Source: Flavobacteriales bacterium
GTDB lineage: Bacteria > Bacteroidota > Bacteroidia > Flavobacteriales_E > Vicingaceae
Length of the DNA: 64,000 nucleotides
Direction: 5' to 3'
NCBI GenBank assembly: GCA_905339165.1
Contig: CAJPFH010000034.1
Span: forward strand, 1 to 64,000
Each line of letters opens with the position of its first letter. Positions within the stretch are counted from its first letter, which is position 1. Below the pieces are notes generated by a model that saw nothing but the letters and a program-made list of their open reading frames with translations, made no database searches and was not told the origin of the DNA. Below are positions 23,216-31,390 of the stretch, piece by piece. Position numbers and translations under genes: made by a program.

Positions 23216-25507
23216 TTATTTTTTTATTTTATCCAGATTCCATTTTAATCCTATGTAAAACATTCTTCCTGTTAAAGGAGCATAATTGTACGAAGTATCG
23301 AAATAAGGACTAAATCCTGCCGGATAATTTCTATCATTAAACCCGCTTATAGGCGAGTCGGAAGGAAAAAAATGGAATATATTTTTAACCCCAAAATAAA
23401 ATTGTCCTTGCTTAGAATAGTTGTATTTACACTCTACATTATGAAGATGAAAGGCGGGCGCTTTTTCATTTCTTTTATTTAGTATTACACCCTCGTTGCT
23501 TACACGATAAACCTCCGGCATTTGAGTAGTTCCGGTGTATTTCCAAGTGTAATTTACATTAATCTTTTTATTAAACAAATAAAGTATACAAATAAATTGA
23601 GTATTGAATTTGGTGCTATAAGGCAAATAGGATAAAACCTTTTTACCTAAACTATCCACATTGTACTCAAAAACATTTTGAAAATTTCCACCTGCACTAA
23701 ACTCAAGTATATCGGCCACTTTCTGATTAACATTTATTTCTACTCCTTTGGAAAATACTTTATTTTTTGTGTTTGAATAAATAACCAAACCGGGTTGTGA
23801 ATAATCGGGTAAGATTTTTTGAGAAAATGAAGTACTATAAAAATCGATTTCAAATTGGTTTATATTTTTAAACAGTTTATAATAGTAGGTACCCGATAGA
23901 GAAATGGTTCTCGCCATTTCGGGCAAAAGCTCATCGGTTAACAACAATTTTCTTTGTCCATTTACAAAGGCATGTTCTTCAGCAAAAAGGTTTACAACAT
24001 TAAACCCTGTGCCAGCATGCAAACGAATATCTAACATTATAAACGGAGAATATTTCAGGTTAAATTGTGTTGAACAAATGAATTTATGCACTTTATAGTA
24101 ATCTGCCCTTGCTCCCATTAAAAAAGATATTTTATCAGATAACAGCACATCATTCTGAATAAACATCGCAGGATTTATTATATAAATGGGCTCATTTAAT
24201 TCGGTTGCGTTTATCCTCTTTTTTGTAAGAAAGGTATTATCATCGTAATAAGAAATTCGAATCGATTTTCCATATTTAAAAGTGTTTTTTCTATACTTAA
24301 TGTTTTCAATGGAGTTTAAGGTAAACATATTTTGTTTTGCGTAAAAAAAATGATTTCCATAGTAACTATCCTGAGCATGAGAAGAAAAAGAAAAATCTAC
24401 TGAAGAATAAAAGGAAAAGGGAAATTGATAAATTCCTGATATTTCAAATCGGTTGGTGTAAATGCTTTCTCCATAAATAAAGTCGCTACCCCTTAAGTAA
24501 GAATAAGCATTATTCTGTAAATAGGCTTCTACCCCATTCCTTCTGTCTTCAAATAAATATTTTGTAAAAAACTCGAATTGTTTTTTTGATTTTCTTTTTA
24601 AACTAAACTTGGAAAATAAGTTATACTTATTAAAATTTATATTATCACCAAATCCATCATGATTCTTATCGGCAAAATGATGAACGCTGCTACTACTGAT
24701 GCCTAGCAAAAATTTAATAACGTAATTTTCATATCCACTAGAAAAATTAATGTCTTTTTGTTTTAAAGAGTTATAATTTGTATTCACTGAGAACATGGGC
24801 ATATTTTCATACTTTTTTGTCCTTACATTAACTACACCCGCCACTGCTCCGGAGCCATATAAGGCAGAATGAGAGCCTTTCGTAACCTCAACAGACTCTA
24901 TCATAGATACCGGAATGCCGTTTAAACTGTACGTAGCTGCTAAACTACCATACACTGGAATGCCATCAATCAGTAGTAAAGTATGGCTACCCGGCAAACC
25001 CCTCGTGCTTATCGAATTAGTGCCACAAACTCCGCAAGCCACTGTTTCATTTATGCCATTCACATAATACACTAAATCCATCAAAGAGGAAGTATTGGGC
25101 CACTTCGACATTGTTTTCTTATCTAACATATAAGTATGAATCATTCTAGAGCGAATACTCTCTTCAATATATTTTTCTACAACAATCCACTCTCCTAGCT
25201 GAACAGATAAGGGGGATAGTTTAAAAATAGTTGTAATTTTATTCGCACTATCCTTTAAAGAAAGGAGTCTCTCTTGTGTCTCAAACCCAATATAGCTTAC
25301 TGTTAATTTCAGTTCTGTTTTCTCGATATTTTTTATCGCCACGCAACCAGATGAATCGGTTAATAAAACACTATGATTTATATAAACATGAGCTTTTTCT
25401 AATGGCTTACCATATTGATTTGTAACAAAAATTTCAACCGTTACATTGCTTTGAGAACTTAATGTAAGGTGTAAAAAATAAAGAGAAAACAAGCACAAAT
25501 ATTTCAT
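23216..25507 (-). CDS. TonB-dependent outer-membrane receptor
   Basis: A 763-residue outer-membrane transporter. A signal peptide (1-18) is followed by a carboxypeptidase-regulatory-like domain (residues ~20-95, VTVEIFVTNQYGKPLEKAHVYIN), a plug (about 130-240, with TRGLPGSHTLLLIDGIPVYG and IESVEVTKGSHSALYGSGAVAGVVNV), and a barrel ending in LKWNLDKIKK. The plug carries the Cys pair CGVCGTN, as in a group of receptors related to colicin/siderophore receptors. Its divergent neighbours are a DtxR-type metalloregulator and a ZIP carrier, so the substrate is probably a metal ion or metal complex (Mn, Fe or Zn); this is inference from context. The shared 74-bp gap carries an operator candidate. Confidence 0.92.
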   Translation of the reverse strand: MKYLCLFSLYFLHLTLSSQSNVTVEIFVTNQYGKPLEKAHVYINHSVLLTDSSGCVAIKNIEKTELKLTVSYIGFETQERLLSLKDSANKITTIFKLSPLSVQLGEWIVVEKYIEESIRSRMIHTYMLDKKTMSKWPNTSSLMDLVYYVNGINETVACGVCGTNSISTRGLPGSHTLLLIDGIPVYGSLAATYSLNGIPVSMIESVEVTKGSHSALYGSGAVAGVVNVRTKKYENMPMFSVNTNYNSLKQKDINFSSGYENYVIKFLLGISSSSVHHFADKNHDGFGDNINFNKYNLFSKFSLKRKSKKQFEFFTKYLFEDRRNGVEAYLQNNAYSYLRGSDFIYGESIYTNRFEISGIYQFPFSFYSSVDFSFSSHAQDSYYGNHFFYAKQNMFTLNSIENIKYRKNTFKYGKSIRISYYDDNTFLTKKRINATELNEPIYIINPAMFIQNDVLLSDKISFLMGARADYYKVHKFICSTQFNLKYSPFIMLDIRLHAGTGFNVVNLFAEEHAFVNGQRKLLLTDELLPEMARTISLSGTYYYKLFKNINQFEIDFYSTSFSQKILPDYSQPGLVIYSNTKNKVFSKGVEINVNQKVADILEFSAGGNFQNVFEYNVDSLGKKVLSYLPYSTKFNTQFICILYLFNKKINVNYTWKYTGTTQMPEVYRVSNEGVILNKRNEKAPAFHLHNVECKYNYSKQGQFYFGVKNIFHFFPSDSPISGFNDRNYPAGFSPYFDTSYNYAPLTGRMFYIGLKWNLDKIKK

Positions 25508-25515
25508 TTTACAAA

Positions 25516-25543
25516 TCTAAATTTATTTTTAGACTTATCTAAA
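25516..25543. promoter_or_regulatory. Candidate DtxR/MntR operator with three half-sites
   Basis: TTTAGA-CTTA-TCTAAA (25528-25543) is a perfect inverted repeat. Its core TTAGA-N4-TCTAA has the same layout as the DtxR/IdeR box TTAGG-N4-CCTAA. A further TCTAAA at 25516-25521 forms a second, wider-spaced palindrome with the middle TTTAGA. The site lies between the divergent starts of the TonB receptor and the DtxR-family gene, so it could control both. Confidence 0.6.
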
Positions 25544-25568
25544 TATTATTTTTTATTGAAACAAATAG

Positions 25569-25576
25569 TACATTTG
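25569..25576 (+). promoter_or_regulatory. TACATTTG -7 box before the DtxR-family gene
   Basis: TAnnTTTG five bases before ATG 25582. The operator candidate ends 25 bases upstream of it, in the -33 region, a natural place for repression. Confidence 0.5.
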
Positions 25577-25581
25577 TCATC

Positions 25582-26247
25582 ATGAATACTTTAGCGGAAG
25601 AAAATTATCTAAAAGCCCTTTACCACCTTACCATGCAAACACCGGAAGGAGCATACACCAACTACATTGCTGCTTACTTGCAAACCAAAGCATCTTCTGT
25701 TACCGATATGCTCAAAAAATTATCATCAAAAAAATTAGTACATTACAAAAAATACCAAGGTGTAACTCTTTCCAAAAAAGGAAAACAGAAAGCATTGCAA
25801 GTGATAAGAAAACACAGGTTATGGGAATATTTTTTAGTTGAGAAATTAAATTTTAGATGGGATGAAGTGCACGAGATTGCCGAACAATTAGAACACATAC
25901 AGTCGGACGAACTAATCAACAGAATAGATAAACTCTTAGGATTTCCAAAATACGATCCGCATGGAGATCCCATTCCTGATGCAAATGGCTACTACGAAGA
26001 AATTCCATTTCTAACACTCTTTGCAATACCTGTAGGCGAAATGGTTACCATTTGCGGAGTTATTGATAGTTCTGTTTCGTTTCTTAAACTCATCGAAAAT
26101 ATAGGCCTTACCATTGGAACTCTTATCAAAGTAGAAGAAATATTTGAATTTGACCATTCTTTAAAAATTGCTATACCTTCAAGAAAAACAAAAGTTTTGG
26201 TTTCACAGCAAATTAGTAAAAACGTACTTGTAAAAATTAAAAAATAG
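25582..26247 (+). CDS. DtxR/MntR-family metal-dependent transcriptional regulator
   Basis: A 221-residue repressor. The N-terminal winged helix (AEENYLKALYHLT..., then TKASSVTDMLKKLSSKKLVHYKKYQGVTLSKKGK) is followed by the metal-binding dimerisation helices (VIRKHRLWEYFLVEKLNFRWDEVHEIAEQLEHI), a CDPHGxPIP-like element (KYDPHGDPIPDANG), and a C-terminal FeoA/SH3-like domain (residues ~145-221). In this family, Mn2+ or Fe2+ binding turns on DNA binding at uptake genes. The usual Cys of the CDPHG motif is Tyr here, which some Mn-responsive members also lack; the metal is not determined. The gene is 6 bp upstream of the ZIP gene. Confidence 0.93.
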   Translation: MNTLAEENYLKALYHLTMQTPEGAYTNYIAAYLQTKASSVTDMLKKLSSKKLVHYKKYQGVTLSKKGKQKALQVIRKHRLWEYFLVEKLNFRWDEVHEIAEQLEHIQSDELINRIDKLLGFPKYDPHGDPIPDANGYYEEIPFLTLFAIPVGEMVTICGVIDSSVSFLKLIENIGLTIGTLIKVEEIFEFDHSLKIAIPSRKTKVLVSQQISKNVLVKIKK

Positions 26248-26253
26248 AATATA

Positions 26254-27075
26254 ATGGAACAACACTTAGATTGGTTTTTATCTTTAAACCCCATTATACA
26301 GGCTTTAATAGCCACTACATTTACTTGGCTAGTAACAGCTTCCGGAGCCTCTCTTGTATTTCTTTTTAAAGAAATGAGCAGAAGGTTGCTCGATACCATG
26401 CTTGGATTTACAGGAGGAGTAATGCTTGCCGCAAGTTTTTGGTCATTATTAAACCCTGCCATAGAAATGTCGGAAGGCAGGAGTGTTCCCTCTTGGTTTC
26501 CGGCAGCTATAGGCTTTATTACAGGAGCTCTATTTTTATTTTTTTTAGACAAATATCTTCCTCATTTACATATTTATGCCGATAAAAAAGAGCAAGAAGG
26601 TGTAAAAACCGATTGGAATAAAACCATTCTTCTCGTACTTGCCATAACGCTGCACAATATTCCGGAAGGCTTGGCTGTGGGCGTTGCGTTTGGAGCCGTA
26701 GGAGCAGGTTTACCACATGCCGATATTGGTGCAGCCATCGCTCTTGCTATTGGTATTGGATTACAAAACTTTCCGGAAGGTATTGCCGTGGCAATGCCAC
26801 TAAGAAGACAGGGAGTGAGTAAGTTTAAAAGTTTTTGGTGGGGACAACTATCTGCCATAGTTGAGCCGGTAGCAGGCGTTATAGGGGCTGCTTCGGTGAT
26901 GCTTATGGAACCCATTTTACCGTATGCACTTTCATTCGCTGCCGGAGCCATGGTATATGTGGTAATTGAAGAGGTGGTTCCAGAAACACAAAGAGATAAA
27001 TATACAGACAGTGCTACCCTTGGATTAATTGCTGGTTTCGTAGTAATGATGGTATTAGACGTAGCATTAGGTTAA
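26254..27075 (+). CDS. ZIP family metal transporter
   Basis: A 273-residue inner-membrane carrier with eight helices that moves divalent cations (Zn2+, Mn2+ or Fe2+) toward the cytosol. The two diagnostic helices are visible: HNIPEGLAVGVAFG and GIGLQNFPEGIAVAMPLR; the ligand set is H-N-x-x-E-G and Q-N-x-P-E-G. The loop between helices 3 and 4 has HLHIYADKKEQEGVK, with His residues that may bind metal. It starts 6 bp after the regulator stop and is thus probably co-expressed with it. Together with the divergent TonB receptor it gives a two-membrane uptake route. Confidence 0.93.
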   Translation: MEQHLDWFLSLNPIIQALIATTFTWLVTASGASLVFLFKEMSRRLLDTMLGFTGGVMLAASFWSLLNPAIEMSEGRSVPSWFPAAIGFITGALFLFFLDKYLPHLHIYADKKEQEGVKTDWNKTILLVLAITLHNIPEGLAVGVAFGAVGAGLPHADIGAAIALAIGIGLQNFPEGIAVAMPLRRQGVSKFKSFWWGQLSAIVEPVAGVIGAASVMLMEPILPYALSFAAGAMVYVVIEEVVPETQRDKYTDSATLGLIAGFVVMMVLDVALG

Positions 27076-27586: not shown

Positions 27587-28366
27587 ATGCAAGAAATAAA
27601 AACTATATCGTTTATCGGATCGGGAAATGTGGCAACCGCTTTAGCCATACATCTTTTTAAAAAAAAATATACCATCACTCAGATATACAGTAAAAACCTA
27701 CACAATGCCAAAGTATTGGCAAAAAAAGTAAAAGCAAAAGCTACAAACCTTATAGAAGGCATGGCCGATGCCGACTTATGCATTGTTGCTCTTAAAGATG
27801 ATGTAATAGAAACTGTATCTAAAAAAATAAACAACAAAAACATTCCCATTGTACACACATCAGGAACAGTAAGCACAGAAGTATTTCATAAGAATAATTT
27901 TAAAACATTCGGCTGCTTTTATCCCTTGCAAACTTTTTCAAAAAAAAGCAAGTTGAGTGTAAGCAACTTTCCTATTTTGCTTGAAGCGAATGACACAAAA
28001 TTCTACACAAAACTTGAAAAAATGGCATCGGCTGTTTCAACCAACAGGCTACGAGCCAATTCTCAGCAACGTCTAAACATACACCTTGCTGCCGTTTTTG
28101 CCTGCAATTTCACCAACTACCTCTATTCGATTTCTGAAAATATTCTACAACAAAGCCATTTTAAAATAAACCTGCTTTACCCTCTCATTAAACAAACGGC
28201 TGAAAATACAAAAAAAGAAAAGGTCTTTACTTTGCAAACAGGACCAGCTATTCGTAAAGATTACAGTACTATAAAAAAACACCTTGAATTGCTTGAAAAA
28301 AACAAAAAAGCAAAAAAAATATATCGTTTACTTACACAAGCTATACAAGAAAAAGCTACGGAATAA
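27587..28366 (+). CDS. Rossmann-fold and DUF2520 domain protein
   Basis: A 259-residue cytosolic protein. An NAD(P)-binding domain at the N-terminus (KTISFIGSGNVATALAIHLFKKK, like NADP oxidoreductases and pyrroline-5-carboxylate reductases) is followed by VHTSGTVSTEVF and GCFYPLQTFSK, which mark the DUF2520 group. The helical C-terminal domain has QRLNIHLAAVFACNFTNYLYSISENIL and TGPAIRKDYSTIKKHLELL. No substrate is established for the family. The strand pattern and short distance to smpB suggest one transcript. Its last 11 bases overlap the convergent peroxidase gene. Confidence 0.88.
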   Translation: MQEIKTISFIGSGNVATALAIHLFKKKYTITQIYSKNLHNAKVLAKKVKAKATNLIEGMADADLCIVALKDDVIETVSKKINNKNIPIVHTSGTVSTEVFHKNNFKTFGCFYPLQTFSKKSKLSVSNFPILLEANDTKFYTKLEKMASAVSTNRLRANSQQRLNIHLAAVFACNFTNYLYSISENILQQSHFKINLLYPLIKQTAENTKKEKVFTLQTGPAIRKDYSTIKKHLELLEKNKKAKKIYRLLTQAIQEKATE

Positions 28367-29378
28367 AATTTTTATTGCTTAGGAATTCCTTATCACTTAA
28401 AGATTTTAAGAAGTGTATCAAATCTTGTTTCTCTGTTTCGGAAATGTTAAACCCTTTTAGCAGTACACTTTTATTTACATGGTTCTTACCTCCCGAAGCA
28501 TAGTGTGCTATTACCTCTTCTAATGAAGAAAAACTGCCATTGTGCATATAGGGAGAAGTGTATTCCGCGTTTCGCAGAGTAGGTACTTTAAATTTTCCTA
28601 CATCGCTACTAAGGTTTGTTATTCTTGCTCTGCCTGCATCGGCATAAACAGTGTACAAACCATTGTTCTCAAAATGATTGTTCGTAAAATTAAAACCACT
28701 ATGGCATTCCGAGCAGGCCAACGATTCAGAAAAAAATAATTTCATTCCTCGCTGTTCAGATGCGGAAAGGGCCGTTGTATCTCCTTGAAAATAATACTTA
28801 TCGAAAGGCGAATTGCCGCTTATCAGTGTTCGCTGAAAAGCAGCAATAGAGCGTGTTATTCCAAAGGCATCGGGTTCTCTTTGGTATGCTTTTTTAAAAA
28901 GCGAAATGTATTTTTTATTTTTCTTTAATCGTTCTATCACCAAATTCATATCCGAGTTCATTTCGTTATGGTCGGCAATTGGGGCTAATGCCTGAAGTTC
29001 CAGCGTTTCGGCACCTCCGTCAAACATCAACGAAAAAGCATACGCAATATTGGTTAACGTGGGGGTATTTCGTATACCCGTGCGATTTACTATGCCTTTA
29101 CTCAGCTCCTGTCCATCGGTAAAAGCTAAATTTAATCGATGACAAGTGGCACAAGACACAGAAGAGTCGAGAGAAAGAATGGGATCGTAGAAGAGCGTTT
29201 TGCCCAACAACACTCTGCTCTCTGTAAGTTCATTATCGACCGGAATAAGAGGAAGAGGAAAACCTTTGGGTATGGTTAAATGATATTGATAATCCCCTTC
29301 AGATGCTATAAAAGTTTTTTTTTCGGCTGCTTTTTTACAAGCCGTAAATAAAATCAATATGGTTAATAAGCGTTTCAT
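28356..29378 (-). CDS. Diheme cytochrome-c peroxidase / MauG-MbnH family lipoprotein
   Basis: A 340-residue exported protein with a lipobox (LILFTAC, Cys14). Two c-type heme sites are visible: CATCH (76-80) and CSECH (222-226). The family motifs LGKTLFYDPILSLDSSVSCATCH, RNTPTLTN and KFKVPTLRNAEYTSPYMHNGSFSSLEEVI are clear. Members either reduce peroxide or, as MauG and MbnH, carry out oxidative protein modification. At the position of the usual FWDGR, it reads MFDGG (118-122), so the Trp expected between the two hemes is Phe119. It follows the MbnP-like gene by only 2 bp, which favours an MbnH-like role acting on that protein; a plain peroxidase is the alternative. Confidence 0.92.
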   Translation of the reverse strand: MKRLLTILILFTACKKAAEKKTFIASEGDYQYHLTIPKGFPLPLIPVDNELTESRVLLGKTLFYDPILSLDSSVSCATCHRLNLAFTDGQELSKGIVNRTGIRNTPTLTNIAYAFSLMFDGGAETLELQALAPIADHNEMNSDMNLVIERLKKNKKYISLFKKAYQREPDAFGITRSIAAFQRTLISGNSPFDKYYFQGDTTALSASEQRGMKLFFSESLACSECHSGFNFTNNHFENNGLYTVYADAGRARITNLSSDVGKFKVPTLRNAEYTSPYMHNGSFSSLEEVIAHYASGGKNHVNKSVLLKGFNISETEKQDLIHFLKSLSDKEFLSNKNFIP

Positions 29379-29380
29379 GA

Positions 29381-30151
29381 TTAATACGTGCTCAGGCTAA
29401 GAGCATCGGCAAAATTACCGGTAAACTTAAAAGCAGTAGGGTTGGTAGCATGCGTTGACGATTCGGTAACAAAATCTATAACACCATTTGAACCAAAGAA
29501 AATTTTGTCTATATCTAACTTAATTTCTACGGTGGGTATTTGTTTTGTTTTTACCTGAAAAGAGGCGGTACTAAACTGAAGCGTGTTATACAATAAATCA
29601 TCACCGGCATGGTAGGAGAATAATTTATTTAAATTGCCATCTCCGTTACCATCTCCTTTTCCATCTAACATAATAAAACGGTATTTAGTAGCCCATGTCC
29701 AATACGTATTTTGTAAAACACTTAAAGGATGGGTAGCCGGAAAGGTAGAGGGATCTGATGCATTTTGCTGAGCATCTAAACCAAGTCCGAACGAAACTCC
29801 ATGATAAGTTCCTATAGGTGCTTTTATTAAAAATTCGGCTCCGGCAGATTGGTTAAAGTTAACCAGTAAAACATCTTCTATTTTAACCGTTCCGCCCTGC
29901 AAAAAATGCAAATGAATATTAGAGATATAAAATTTTAAAAGTTCTATTTTAATAGCTCTTCCTAATTGATCGTTTACTACCTGATTTAATGAAAAATGGT
30001 TTCCCGAATGATGAAACGATGCCCTAAGCTTAATATAGGCCGGAATAAATGAAGCATTTCCCTCCCCCGTTGGTGGCTTTAGTTTCTTTTCGCACGAGGC
30101 GAAGAATAGCAGCAGTAAAAAAAACAAAAGAGCATTTTGAACTGTTTTCAT
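29381..30151 (-). CDS. MbnP-like periplasmic lipoprotein
   Basis: A 256-residue exported protein with a lipobox (FFASC, Cys20). Residues 39-110 have IKLRASFHHSGNHFSLNQV and IKIELLKFYISNIHLHF, the beta-sandwich start of the MbnP family. The diagnostic motif is TYWTWATKYRFIMLDGKGDG (149-168). In methanotroph MbnP, a tryptophan is oxidised to kynurenine by the diheme partner MbnH to create a copper-binding protein; here Trp151 and Trp153 are the candidates. The loop after this motif is rich in Asp and Gly (DGKGDGNGDGN) and might bind a cation. It sits between two diheme peroxidase genes, one downstream by 2 bp and one divergent. Confidence 0.88.
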   Translation of the reverse strand: MKTVQNALLFFLLLLFFASCEKKLKPPTGEGNASFIPAYIKLRASFHHSGNHFSLNQVVNDQLGRAIKIELLKFYISNIHLHFLQGGTVKIEDVLLVNFNQSAGAEFLIKAPIGTYHGVSFGLGLDAQQNASDPSTFPATHPLSVLQNTYWTWATKYRFIMLDGKGDGNGDGNLNKLFSYHAGDDLLYNTLQFSTASFQVKTKQIPTVEIKLDIDKIFFGSNGVIDFVTESSTHATNPTAFKFTGNFADALSLSTY

Positions 30152-30253
30152 GTATCACGAATTTAATTTTTTTAAACAAAATCTATCAAAGTTAGAGAAT
30201 TTAAATAAACTGATTTCTATCATAAATATTCATGATTAATGTCTAAATGAAAA

Positions 30254-31390
30254 ATGATGCTTAACTTGGTGCTCGTGTACATAAAAAAAATTTACATACC
30301 CATTCTTTTGTTTGCAGTTCTTCTTATTATATGGCATTGCAAACCGGAAAAACCTAAACTAAATATTCCTTCTCCCCCATCGGCATGGGAATATAATTCC
30401 ACTCCTTTTAATCTAAGTTACCCACAACATTTTCCTCCCATCAGTTTTCCAATAGATAATCCGCTTACTGAGCAAGGGATAGAATTAGGCCGAAAATTAT
30501 TTTACGACCCCATTCTTTCAGGAGATGGTACTCAGTCCTGTGCCGATTGCCATAAGCAAGCCAATGCGTTTACCGATCCAGCTCCATTTAGTACCGGTAT
30601 AGATGGACTTCTGGGAAACAGAAACGCAATGACCATCATCAATTTAGCGTGGGCTCCTCACTCTTTGTTTTGGGACGGAAGAGCCACTTCTCTAGAACAC
30701 CAAGCATTGGGTCCGGTTGTAAACCCCATTGAAATGCATAATACATGGAAAAATGCTGCAAATAAACTTAAATTACACCCGCAATATCCTAAACTGTTTT
30801 ACGAGGCATTCGGAACGGCAAACATAGATTCTAACCTTGTAGTAAAAGCTATTGCACAATTTGAACGCACTTTAATTAGCGGAAACTCCCGTTTCGATAG
30901 ATGGATTAAACAAGAAATTATTCCCACCGCTCTCGAATTACAAGGCTTTAATTTATTCATTACCGACCGTAACGTAAATGCCGGAATTTCGGGAGCTGAC
31001 TGCTTTCACTGCCACCCCCACTCTAACGGAATGTTTACCGATTTTTTATTACACAACAACGGATTAGATAACGAACCTTTTGCCGATAAAGGACTAGGAG
31101 AGCTTACCGGAAACCCTTCGGATGTTGGAAAATTCAGAACACCCACTTTGCGTAATTGGGCATTTTCTGCTCCTTACATGCACGATAGCCGTTTCCAAAC
31201 CATAGACGAGGTTATTGATTTTTACAGTTCCGGATTGAAACATTCTTCTACCATTGACCCTCTTATGAAAAACATCAACGACAATGGAGTTCAGCTTAGT
31301 CCTCAAGAGAAACAAGCGTTAAAAGCCTTTCTAATGATGTTGAATGACACCTCTTTTGTAACCAATCCTAGTTTTTCTAAACCCGATTAA
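30254..31390 (+). CDS. Diheme cytochrome-c peroxidase / MauG family protein
   Basis: A 378-residue exported protein with one N-terminal hydrophobic segment (IPILLFAVLLIIWHC) that may be a signal anchor; a lipoprotein site at Cys29 is possible but non-standard. Hemes bind at CADCH (96-100) and CFHCH (250-254). ELGRKLFYDPILSGDGTQSCADCH, FWDGRATSLEHQALGP with Trp140, QFERTLISGNSRFDRW, and RTPTLRNWAFSAPYMHDSRFQTIDEVI are family marks. It retains the Trp of the FWDGR motif, unlike its neighbour at 28356. The gene diverges from the MbnP-like gene with a 102-bp shared gap. The C-terminal heme motif with CFHCHPHSNGMFTD resembles that of the MbnH-like branch. Confidence 0.92.
   Translation: MMLNLVLVYIKKIYIPILLFAVLLIIWHCKPEKPKLNIPSPPSAWEYNSTPFNLSYPQHFPPISFPIDNPLTEQGIELGRKLFYDPILSGDGTQSCADCHKQANAFTDPAPFSTGIDGLLGNRNAMTIINLAWAPHSLFWDGRATSLEHQALGPVVNPIEMHNTWKNAANKLKLHPQYPKLFYEAFGTANIDSNLVVKAIAQFERTLISGNSRFDRWIKQEIIPTALELQGFNLFITDRNVNAGISGADCFHCHPHSNGMFTDFLLHNNGLDNEPFADKGLGELTGNPSDVGKFRTPTLRNWAFSAPYMHDSRFQTIDEVIDFYSSGLKHSSTIDPLMKNINDNGVQLSPQEKQALKAFLMMLNDTSFVTNPSFSKPD

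Follow-up and report, generated by a model that had tools for sequence, protein, structure and literature searches.

We have identified, in a Flavobacteriales bacterium of the family Vicingaceae (assembly GCA_905339165.1), a locus in which the gene for an MbnP-family envelope lipoprotein, mbnP, lies between the genes for two diheme enzymes of the CCP_MauG family, here called enzA and enzB. The locus occupies positions 28356-31390 of the window, by which we mean the whole 64,000-nucleotide stretch of contig CAJPFH010000034.1 that was analysed. It is a variant of the MbnP/MbnH theme, both real and recurrent, and we propose that it is a two-enzyme maturation set for the copper site of its MbnP, a reading to which we give a probability of about 0.5. 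The proposal draws on the order and families of the genes, on a difference between the two enzymes at the residue between their hemes, and on the recurrence of the same combination in other Bacteroidota.

The gene enzA (28356-29378, minus strand, 340 amino acids (aa)), which encodes a probable lipoprotein (FTAC), lies 2 bp downstream of mbnP (29381-30151, minus strand, 256 aa), and enzB (30254-31390, plus strand, 378 aa) diverges from mbnP across a 102-bp intergenic region (30152-30253). A preliminary description of this DNA had reported the same layout, and its coordinates are exact; the TYWTWATKYRFIML motif that it noted is present in mbnP, with Trp151 and Trp153 correctly numbered. A congeneric genome (G005, locus L039) carries these three genes too, in unchanged order and divergent layout. 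The 102-bp region is near-identical there, with 94% mean column identity over a 176-column aligned stretch that includes it. The window's genome (3.16 Mb) holds only four CCP_MauG genes in all, two of which flank mbnP, and since the congener and dozens of further loci repeat the layout, this proximity goes beyond chance.

Membership of the three proteins was assessed against family profiles. The enzymes EnzA and EnzB score 182.9 and 199.1 bits against CCP_MauG in Pfam (cut-off 25.6), and MbnP scores 102.8 bits against PF20243 (MbnP; gathering cut-off 27). The NCBIfam equivalog cut-offs are not reached: MbnP gives 32.9 bits for TIGR04052 (MbnP; 140), and EnzA and EnzB give 283.9 and 247.3 bits for TIGR04039 (MbnH; 362.85) and 245.6 and 165.3 bits for TIGR03791 (MauG; 443.85). 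Because the scores fall below these cut-offs, ‘MbnP-like’ and ‘MbnH/MauG-like’ are the right level of naming, as the preliminary description had chosen, and we file mbnP under the MbnP superfamily. Both enzymes carry the two c-heme CXXCH motifs and the tyrosine of PYMH that mark MbnH (C76xxCH, C222xxCH and Tyr277 in EnzA; C96xxCH, C250xxCH and Tyr308 in EnzB), and MbnP carries the WxW pair of its family.

AlphaFold2 models were made for MbnP and EnzA, and our statements on fold cover those two proteins. The MbnP model matches 7l6g, the MbnP of Methylosinus trichosporium, with Z 16.6 (202 aligned residues, root-mean-square deviation 2.7); the next unrelated entry has Z 5.7, and unrelated folds all lie below Z 6. 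The EnzA model matches the MbnH-type enzyme 6e1c with Z 31.1 (306 aligned residues, root-mean-square deviation 2.7). These predicted models agree with the family assignments. In a sequence search of the PDB, 6e1c was the best match for EnzA and for EnzB, followed by bacterial cytochrome c peroxidases (bCCPs). That ranking, together with membership of the CCP_MauG superfamily, would suit an account in which one or both enzymes simply defend the periplasm against H2O2 as ordinary diheme peroxidases, MbnP is a passive copper store, and the genes lie together as members of a shared stress regulon. However, the PYMH tyrosine is retained as in MauG and MbnH, where classical bCCPs have a Met ligand on the low-spin heme, the top fold match (EnzA) and the top sequence match are an MbnH-type enzyme, and such enzymes stand in tight operons with MbnP at nearly every locus described below; we regard simple peroxide defence as very improbable.

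The two enzymes differ at the inter-heme position. We located this column in an alignment with MauG from a mau cluster (L271) and the MbnH enzymes of Methylocystis, Pseudoalteromonas and Trichormus, and in a larger alignment with 6e1c. The distal Gln, Pro and Glu follow it at distances of 10, 14 and 20 residues, which is how Q103, P107 and E113, the positions given in the titles of MauG PDB entries, are spaced from Trp93 in MauG. Trp occupies the column in MauG, MbnH, 6e1c and most single enzymes, and EnzB retains it (Trp140, with Gln150/Pro154/Glu160), whereas EnzA has Phe119 (with Gln129/Pro133/Glu139) and so lacks the inter-heme tryptophan of MbnH. In the Trp-less enzymes that accompany MbnPs of the MHWGW subtype, the column is mostly Arg and sometimes Lys, Phe or Met. 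The heme motifs and the PYMH tyrosine are retained in the Trp-less enzymes, with the distal Gln/Pro/Glu present in 92-95 of 96 sequences, and these enzymes therefore do not look decayed. Additionally, BthA of Burkholderia, which has Ser257 in place of the inter-heme Trp, is still an active peroxidase and still forms bis-Fe(IV) (PMC6405878); the change in EnzA therefore cannot be read as loss of function. A residue equivalent to MauG Trp199 was also sought in the enzymes, and was dropped when the numbering did not fit. The inter-heme Trp is likewise absent, with Leu, Ala, Tyr or Arg in its place, at the single-enzyme MbnP loci L187, L193, L198, L207, L210 and L211, whose enzymes fall outside the EnzA clade.

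This difference could be taken to mean that EnzB is the tryptophan-oxidising enzyme and EnzA an accessory without MauG-like chemistry, be it an electron carrier, a peroxide scavenger or a structural partner, possibly in a heterodimer. At the position of MauG W93, EnzB still has the Trp, whereas EnzA and its clade have another residue, mostly Arg, and the literature regards the inter-heme Trp as important both for the sharing of charge between the hemes of MauG and for the activity of bCCPs (PMC6405878). On the other hand, EnzA still has its two hemes, the axial Tyr and the distal-pocket residues that were examined, BthA shows that a member without the Trp can be active, and EnzA is a near-obligate partner of this MbnP type; a purely accessory role therefore seems unlikely.

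To examine how widely the two-enzyme layout recurs, MbnP and cytochrome c peroxidase (CCP)-type genes were annotated with iterated profiles in 40 regions from the window's family, in 80 named loci retrieved by a profile of MHWGW-type MbnPs, and in 60 regions across the phylum. The 80 loci are the best matches to one MbnP subtype, and the counts hold for the MHWGW subtype rather than for MbnPs generally; an order-wide profile search was swamped by the type IX-like tail of these proteins, and high scores alone were used. One Trp-bearing and one Trp-lacking CCP are adjacent to mbnP at 68 of 88 distinct MHWGW loci, and both enzymes are present at 61 of the 75 that have at least 2.6 kb of downstream sequence. 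Of the 66 sets that could be scored cleanly, 65 are co-directional; the median gap is 3 bp, and 128 of 132 gaps are under 50 bp. The enzyme order varies (38 loci one way, 28 the other). Eight genomes have MHWGW loci with the Trp-bearing enzyme only, and seven of these contain a Trp-less enzyme of the EnzA clade, nearby in G343 and elsewhere in the rest; G342 contains none. MbnPs of the MYWxW, WxWP and NHWxW types are nearly always accompanied by just one CCP. Some CCP_MauG-like proteins are longer, at about 610-655 aa, and were seen at L199:5978 (649 aa) and as long frames in G342, G343, G344 and G345; the one in L199 is encoded 55 bp from an MbnP gene, and its inter-heme position is occupied by Tyr.

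The EnzA clade follows this MbnP type through the window's family. Among 46 family genomes, the clade is set apart by a gap in score (at least 454 bits, against at most 367 for everything else). Its enzymes occur in 15 of the 46, 14 of them with an MHWGW or TYWxW MbnP, and in the remaining one (G035) the contig breaks off at the place where MbnP would be expected. No MHWGW or TYWxW MbnP without an EnzA-clade enzyme was found among the 46, a count that excludes G014, where a distant MbnP (216 bits) has no adjacent CCP. A naive Fisher test of the co-occurrence gives p 6e-11, which treats related genomes as independent and is indicative only. EnzA is a dedicated, near-obligate partner of this MbnP type. 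In 12 of these 15 genomes, a Trp-bearing enzyme is encoded next to the EnzA-clade gene. G028 and G022 have no such neighbour, and in G015 a contig end interrupts the locus. Recurrence across loci and co-occurrence within the family together rule out a chance proximity of peroxidases, and the two-enzyme layout is not chance. The suggestion that two paralogues around one MbnP form a meaningful arrangement has thus held up in this comparison of Bacteroidota neighbourhoods, where unrelated neighbours would have spoken against it.

A tree of 90 enzyme sequences, built with the Trp column masked, places the window's EnzA in a clade of 24 sequences (support 100/96). The first branch is a Trp-bearing enzyme from another genus (L060), followed by the window and its congener (Phe) and then by 21 Trp-less sequences. 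EnzB falls within a clade that consists mostly of partners of WxWP MbnPs (99/95), in a group of eight (97/93) that includes the EnzB of L060. In L060, genes for a TYWNW MbnP, EnzA and EnzB form one co-directional operon with 4-bp overlaps. This operon unites relatives of all three proteins, and it speaks for the divergent pair in the window being a unit as well. The Trp-bearing enzyme of the MHWGW sets comes from a clade other than that of EnzB, which means that the EnzA clade has had more than one kind of Trp-bearing partner (in the MHWGW, TYWxW and L222 loci). A recent tandem duplication giving rise to EnzA and EnzB is ruled out by their well separated clades. The tree does not resolve the order of branching among MbnH, the NHWxW partners and the EnzA clade; a sister relationship of EnzA to the proteobacterial/cyanobacterial MbnH clade, suggested by FastTree, is among these unresolved points and is not claimed.

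Several of these observations weigh against a two-enzyme maturation set. EnzB nests among partners of the WxWP MbnP subtype and could therefore serve another substrate. G028 and G022 have an MHWGW MbnP and an EnzA-clade enzyme with no adjacent Trp enzyme, and hence the second enzyme is not strictly required. The tree traces the loss of the Trp from the EnzA clade largely to a single event; the pairings of Trp-bearing and Trp-less enzymes therefore do not amount to many independent observations, and the activity of the Trp-less BthA (PMC6405878) means that the loss need not imply a different chemistry. The position of EnzB on the tree, and the fact that within the family the EnzA clade always co-occurs with this MbnP type while adjacent Trp enzymes do not, would also fit an account in which EnzA alone matures MbnP in the one-enzyme manner of MbnH, and EnzB is a neighbour from, or for, a WxWP-MbnP system that shares the divergent promoter region. 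However, the genome contains no WxWP MbnP, and its sole other MbnP, of the YWPDH type, has an adjacent CCP of its own. Furthermore, the relative of EnzB in L060 is locked into an overlapping operon with EnzA and MbnP, the divergent layout is maintained in the congener, and other MbnP lineages (MHWGW, L222) also combine the EnzA clade with a Trp enzyme. We consider it rather unlikely that EnzA acts alone, and we favour the two-enzyme set.

The putative substrate was compared in a diverse alignment of 20 MbnP sequences, where Trp151, Trp153, Tyr157, Gly164 and His181 are invariant. His141 and His234 are common to the MHWGW, TYWxW and most NHWxW/LHWGW MbnPs; MYWxW MbnPs largely lack the pair (Leu141, with His234 in a minority), as do the WxWP types. 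Manesis is said to have reported in 2021 that the first Trp of the MbnP WxW becomes kynurenine and that the Cu(I) site includes a His and a Met. Most MbnPs have Met at position 149, two residues ahead of the first WxW Trp; the window has Thr there, and the predicted copper site of this MbnP may differ. MHWGW MbnPs have a C-terminal sorting-like tail resembling that of type IX secretion substrates, and the window's MbnP has a lipobox-like start instead. A gene for HYC_CC_PP (NF047658), a small Cys-rich secreted protein, usually lies just upstream of MHWGW mbnP (about 50 loci, for example L067:8470-8868 and L141:5482-5922), mostly on the same strand and at a median offset of 140 bp. The family name gives no function, and one copy lies elsewhere in the window's genome (C132); the protein is possibly a further part of the MbnP set.

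Under the two-enzyme reading, EnzB would have been recruited, as the second diheme enzyme, from a different lineage of MbnP partners. Both enzymes would use peroxide at a five-coordinate heme, in the pocket with Gln/Pro/Glu, and one or both would take electrons from the WxW pair of docked MbnP, Trp151 first by analogy with MbnP/MbnH. Oxidation would yield kynurenine and a Cu(I) site including His181 and probably His141/His234. EnzB could share charge between its hemes via Trp140 for long-range, MauG-like oxidation. EnzA, with Phe (Arg in most relatives), does not have this route; it would perform an oxidation step of its own, or provide oxidising equivalents with no hole hopping between the hemes. 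That two enzymes are kept would be explained most economically by different steps on one substrate. The split of redox roles raised in the preliminary description has gained one sequence correlate, Phe119 in EnzA versus Trp140 in EnzB. What the sequences show is the gene order, the families, the predicted folds of MbnP and EnzA, the residue pattern, the recurrence and the co-occurrence; the action of both enzymes on this MbnP, the kynurenine, the copper and the division of labour are what we infer.

A broader proposal, which we offer tentatively, is that Bacteroidota run a conserved split maturation of MbnP. The MbnH-like enzyme would first have been joined by a second diheme enzyme and would then have lost its inter-heme Trp, a position that is still Trp in L060 but Phe in the window and mostly Arg in the MHWGW sets. 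The two would carry out different oxidation steps on one WxW substrate to give a copper site with kynurenine, perhaps in a three-His environment and with a second residue modified as well. If true, copper sites of the kynurenine type, so far known in a few proteins of methanotrophs, would extend to exported proteins of Bacteroidota. Whether protein-modifying chemistry needs an inter-heme Trp is a central question for MauG, MbnH and BthA, and the many operons that pair a Trp-bearing and a Trp-less diheme enzyme with one substrate make it accessible to single deletions.

Known systems resemble the locus in part. The MbnP/MbnH pair of M. trichosporium (7l6g, 6e1c; TIGR04052/TIGR04039) shares the MbnP fold, the WxW and the adjacent diheme enzyme, but the window has two enzymes rather than one, no inter-heme Trp in EnzA, Thr149 where 7l6g has Met, scores short of the equivalog cut-offs, and no methanobactin genes. 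In methanotrophs, the MopE/SACCP and CorA/CorB systems each have a secreted or surface copper protein with a Trp-derived kynurenine, whose gene adjoins that of a diheme CCP-like enzyme (PMC3912023, PMC3621798). The likeness lies in the copper-protein gene beside the diheme enzyme, the kynurenine in the window being predicted, and the difference in one enzyme per substrate as opposed to two. MauG, which acts in tryptophan tryptophylquinone biosynthesis, shares with EnzA and EnzB the superfamily, the axial Tyr motif and the spacing of the distal Gln/Pro/Glu from the Trp position. Unlike MauG, the enzymes fall below TIGR03791, no mau gene is among the identified window neighbours, and their substrate would be MbnP instead of methylamine dehydrogenase. 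BthA is comparable to EnzA as a diheme enzyme with a replaced inter-heme Trp (PMC6405878). The replacement is Ser in BthA, Phe in EnzA and mainly Arg in the relatives of EnzA. We know of no MbnP partner for BthA. No description of the two-enzyme layout or the Trp/no-Trp split was found in the searchable literature, which leaves out the main MbnH/MbnP papers and most subscription papers, and we do not claim priority.

The window's genome has two MbnP genes. The second (G000:C7:37900-41150; L037:6927-10149) lies between a porin-like gene and a single CCP of its own, in a locus that is conserved in the congener; it has YWPDHM in place of WxW, and its CCP has the Trp but SFMHD for PYMHD. No match to the MbnB family (PF05114) was found anywhere in the genome; methanobactin is therefore not involved, and the earlier remark that no methanobactin genes lie nearby extends to the whole genome. 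A metal-uptake cluster at 23216-27075 of the window comprises a TonB-dependent receptor with a CGVCGTN stretch, a divergent DtxR/MntR-type regulator and a ZIP transporter. It is kept near the MbnP locus in the congener but was not seen beside MbnP in the other family regions, and we treat it as unrelated to the MbnP locus. In the PLSDB gene table, several MbnH-type diheme enzymes are named ‘methanobactin export MATE transporter MbnM’ (for example in the plasmid records NZ_CP092970.1 and NZ_CP047243.1), which looks like a naming error.

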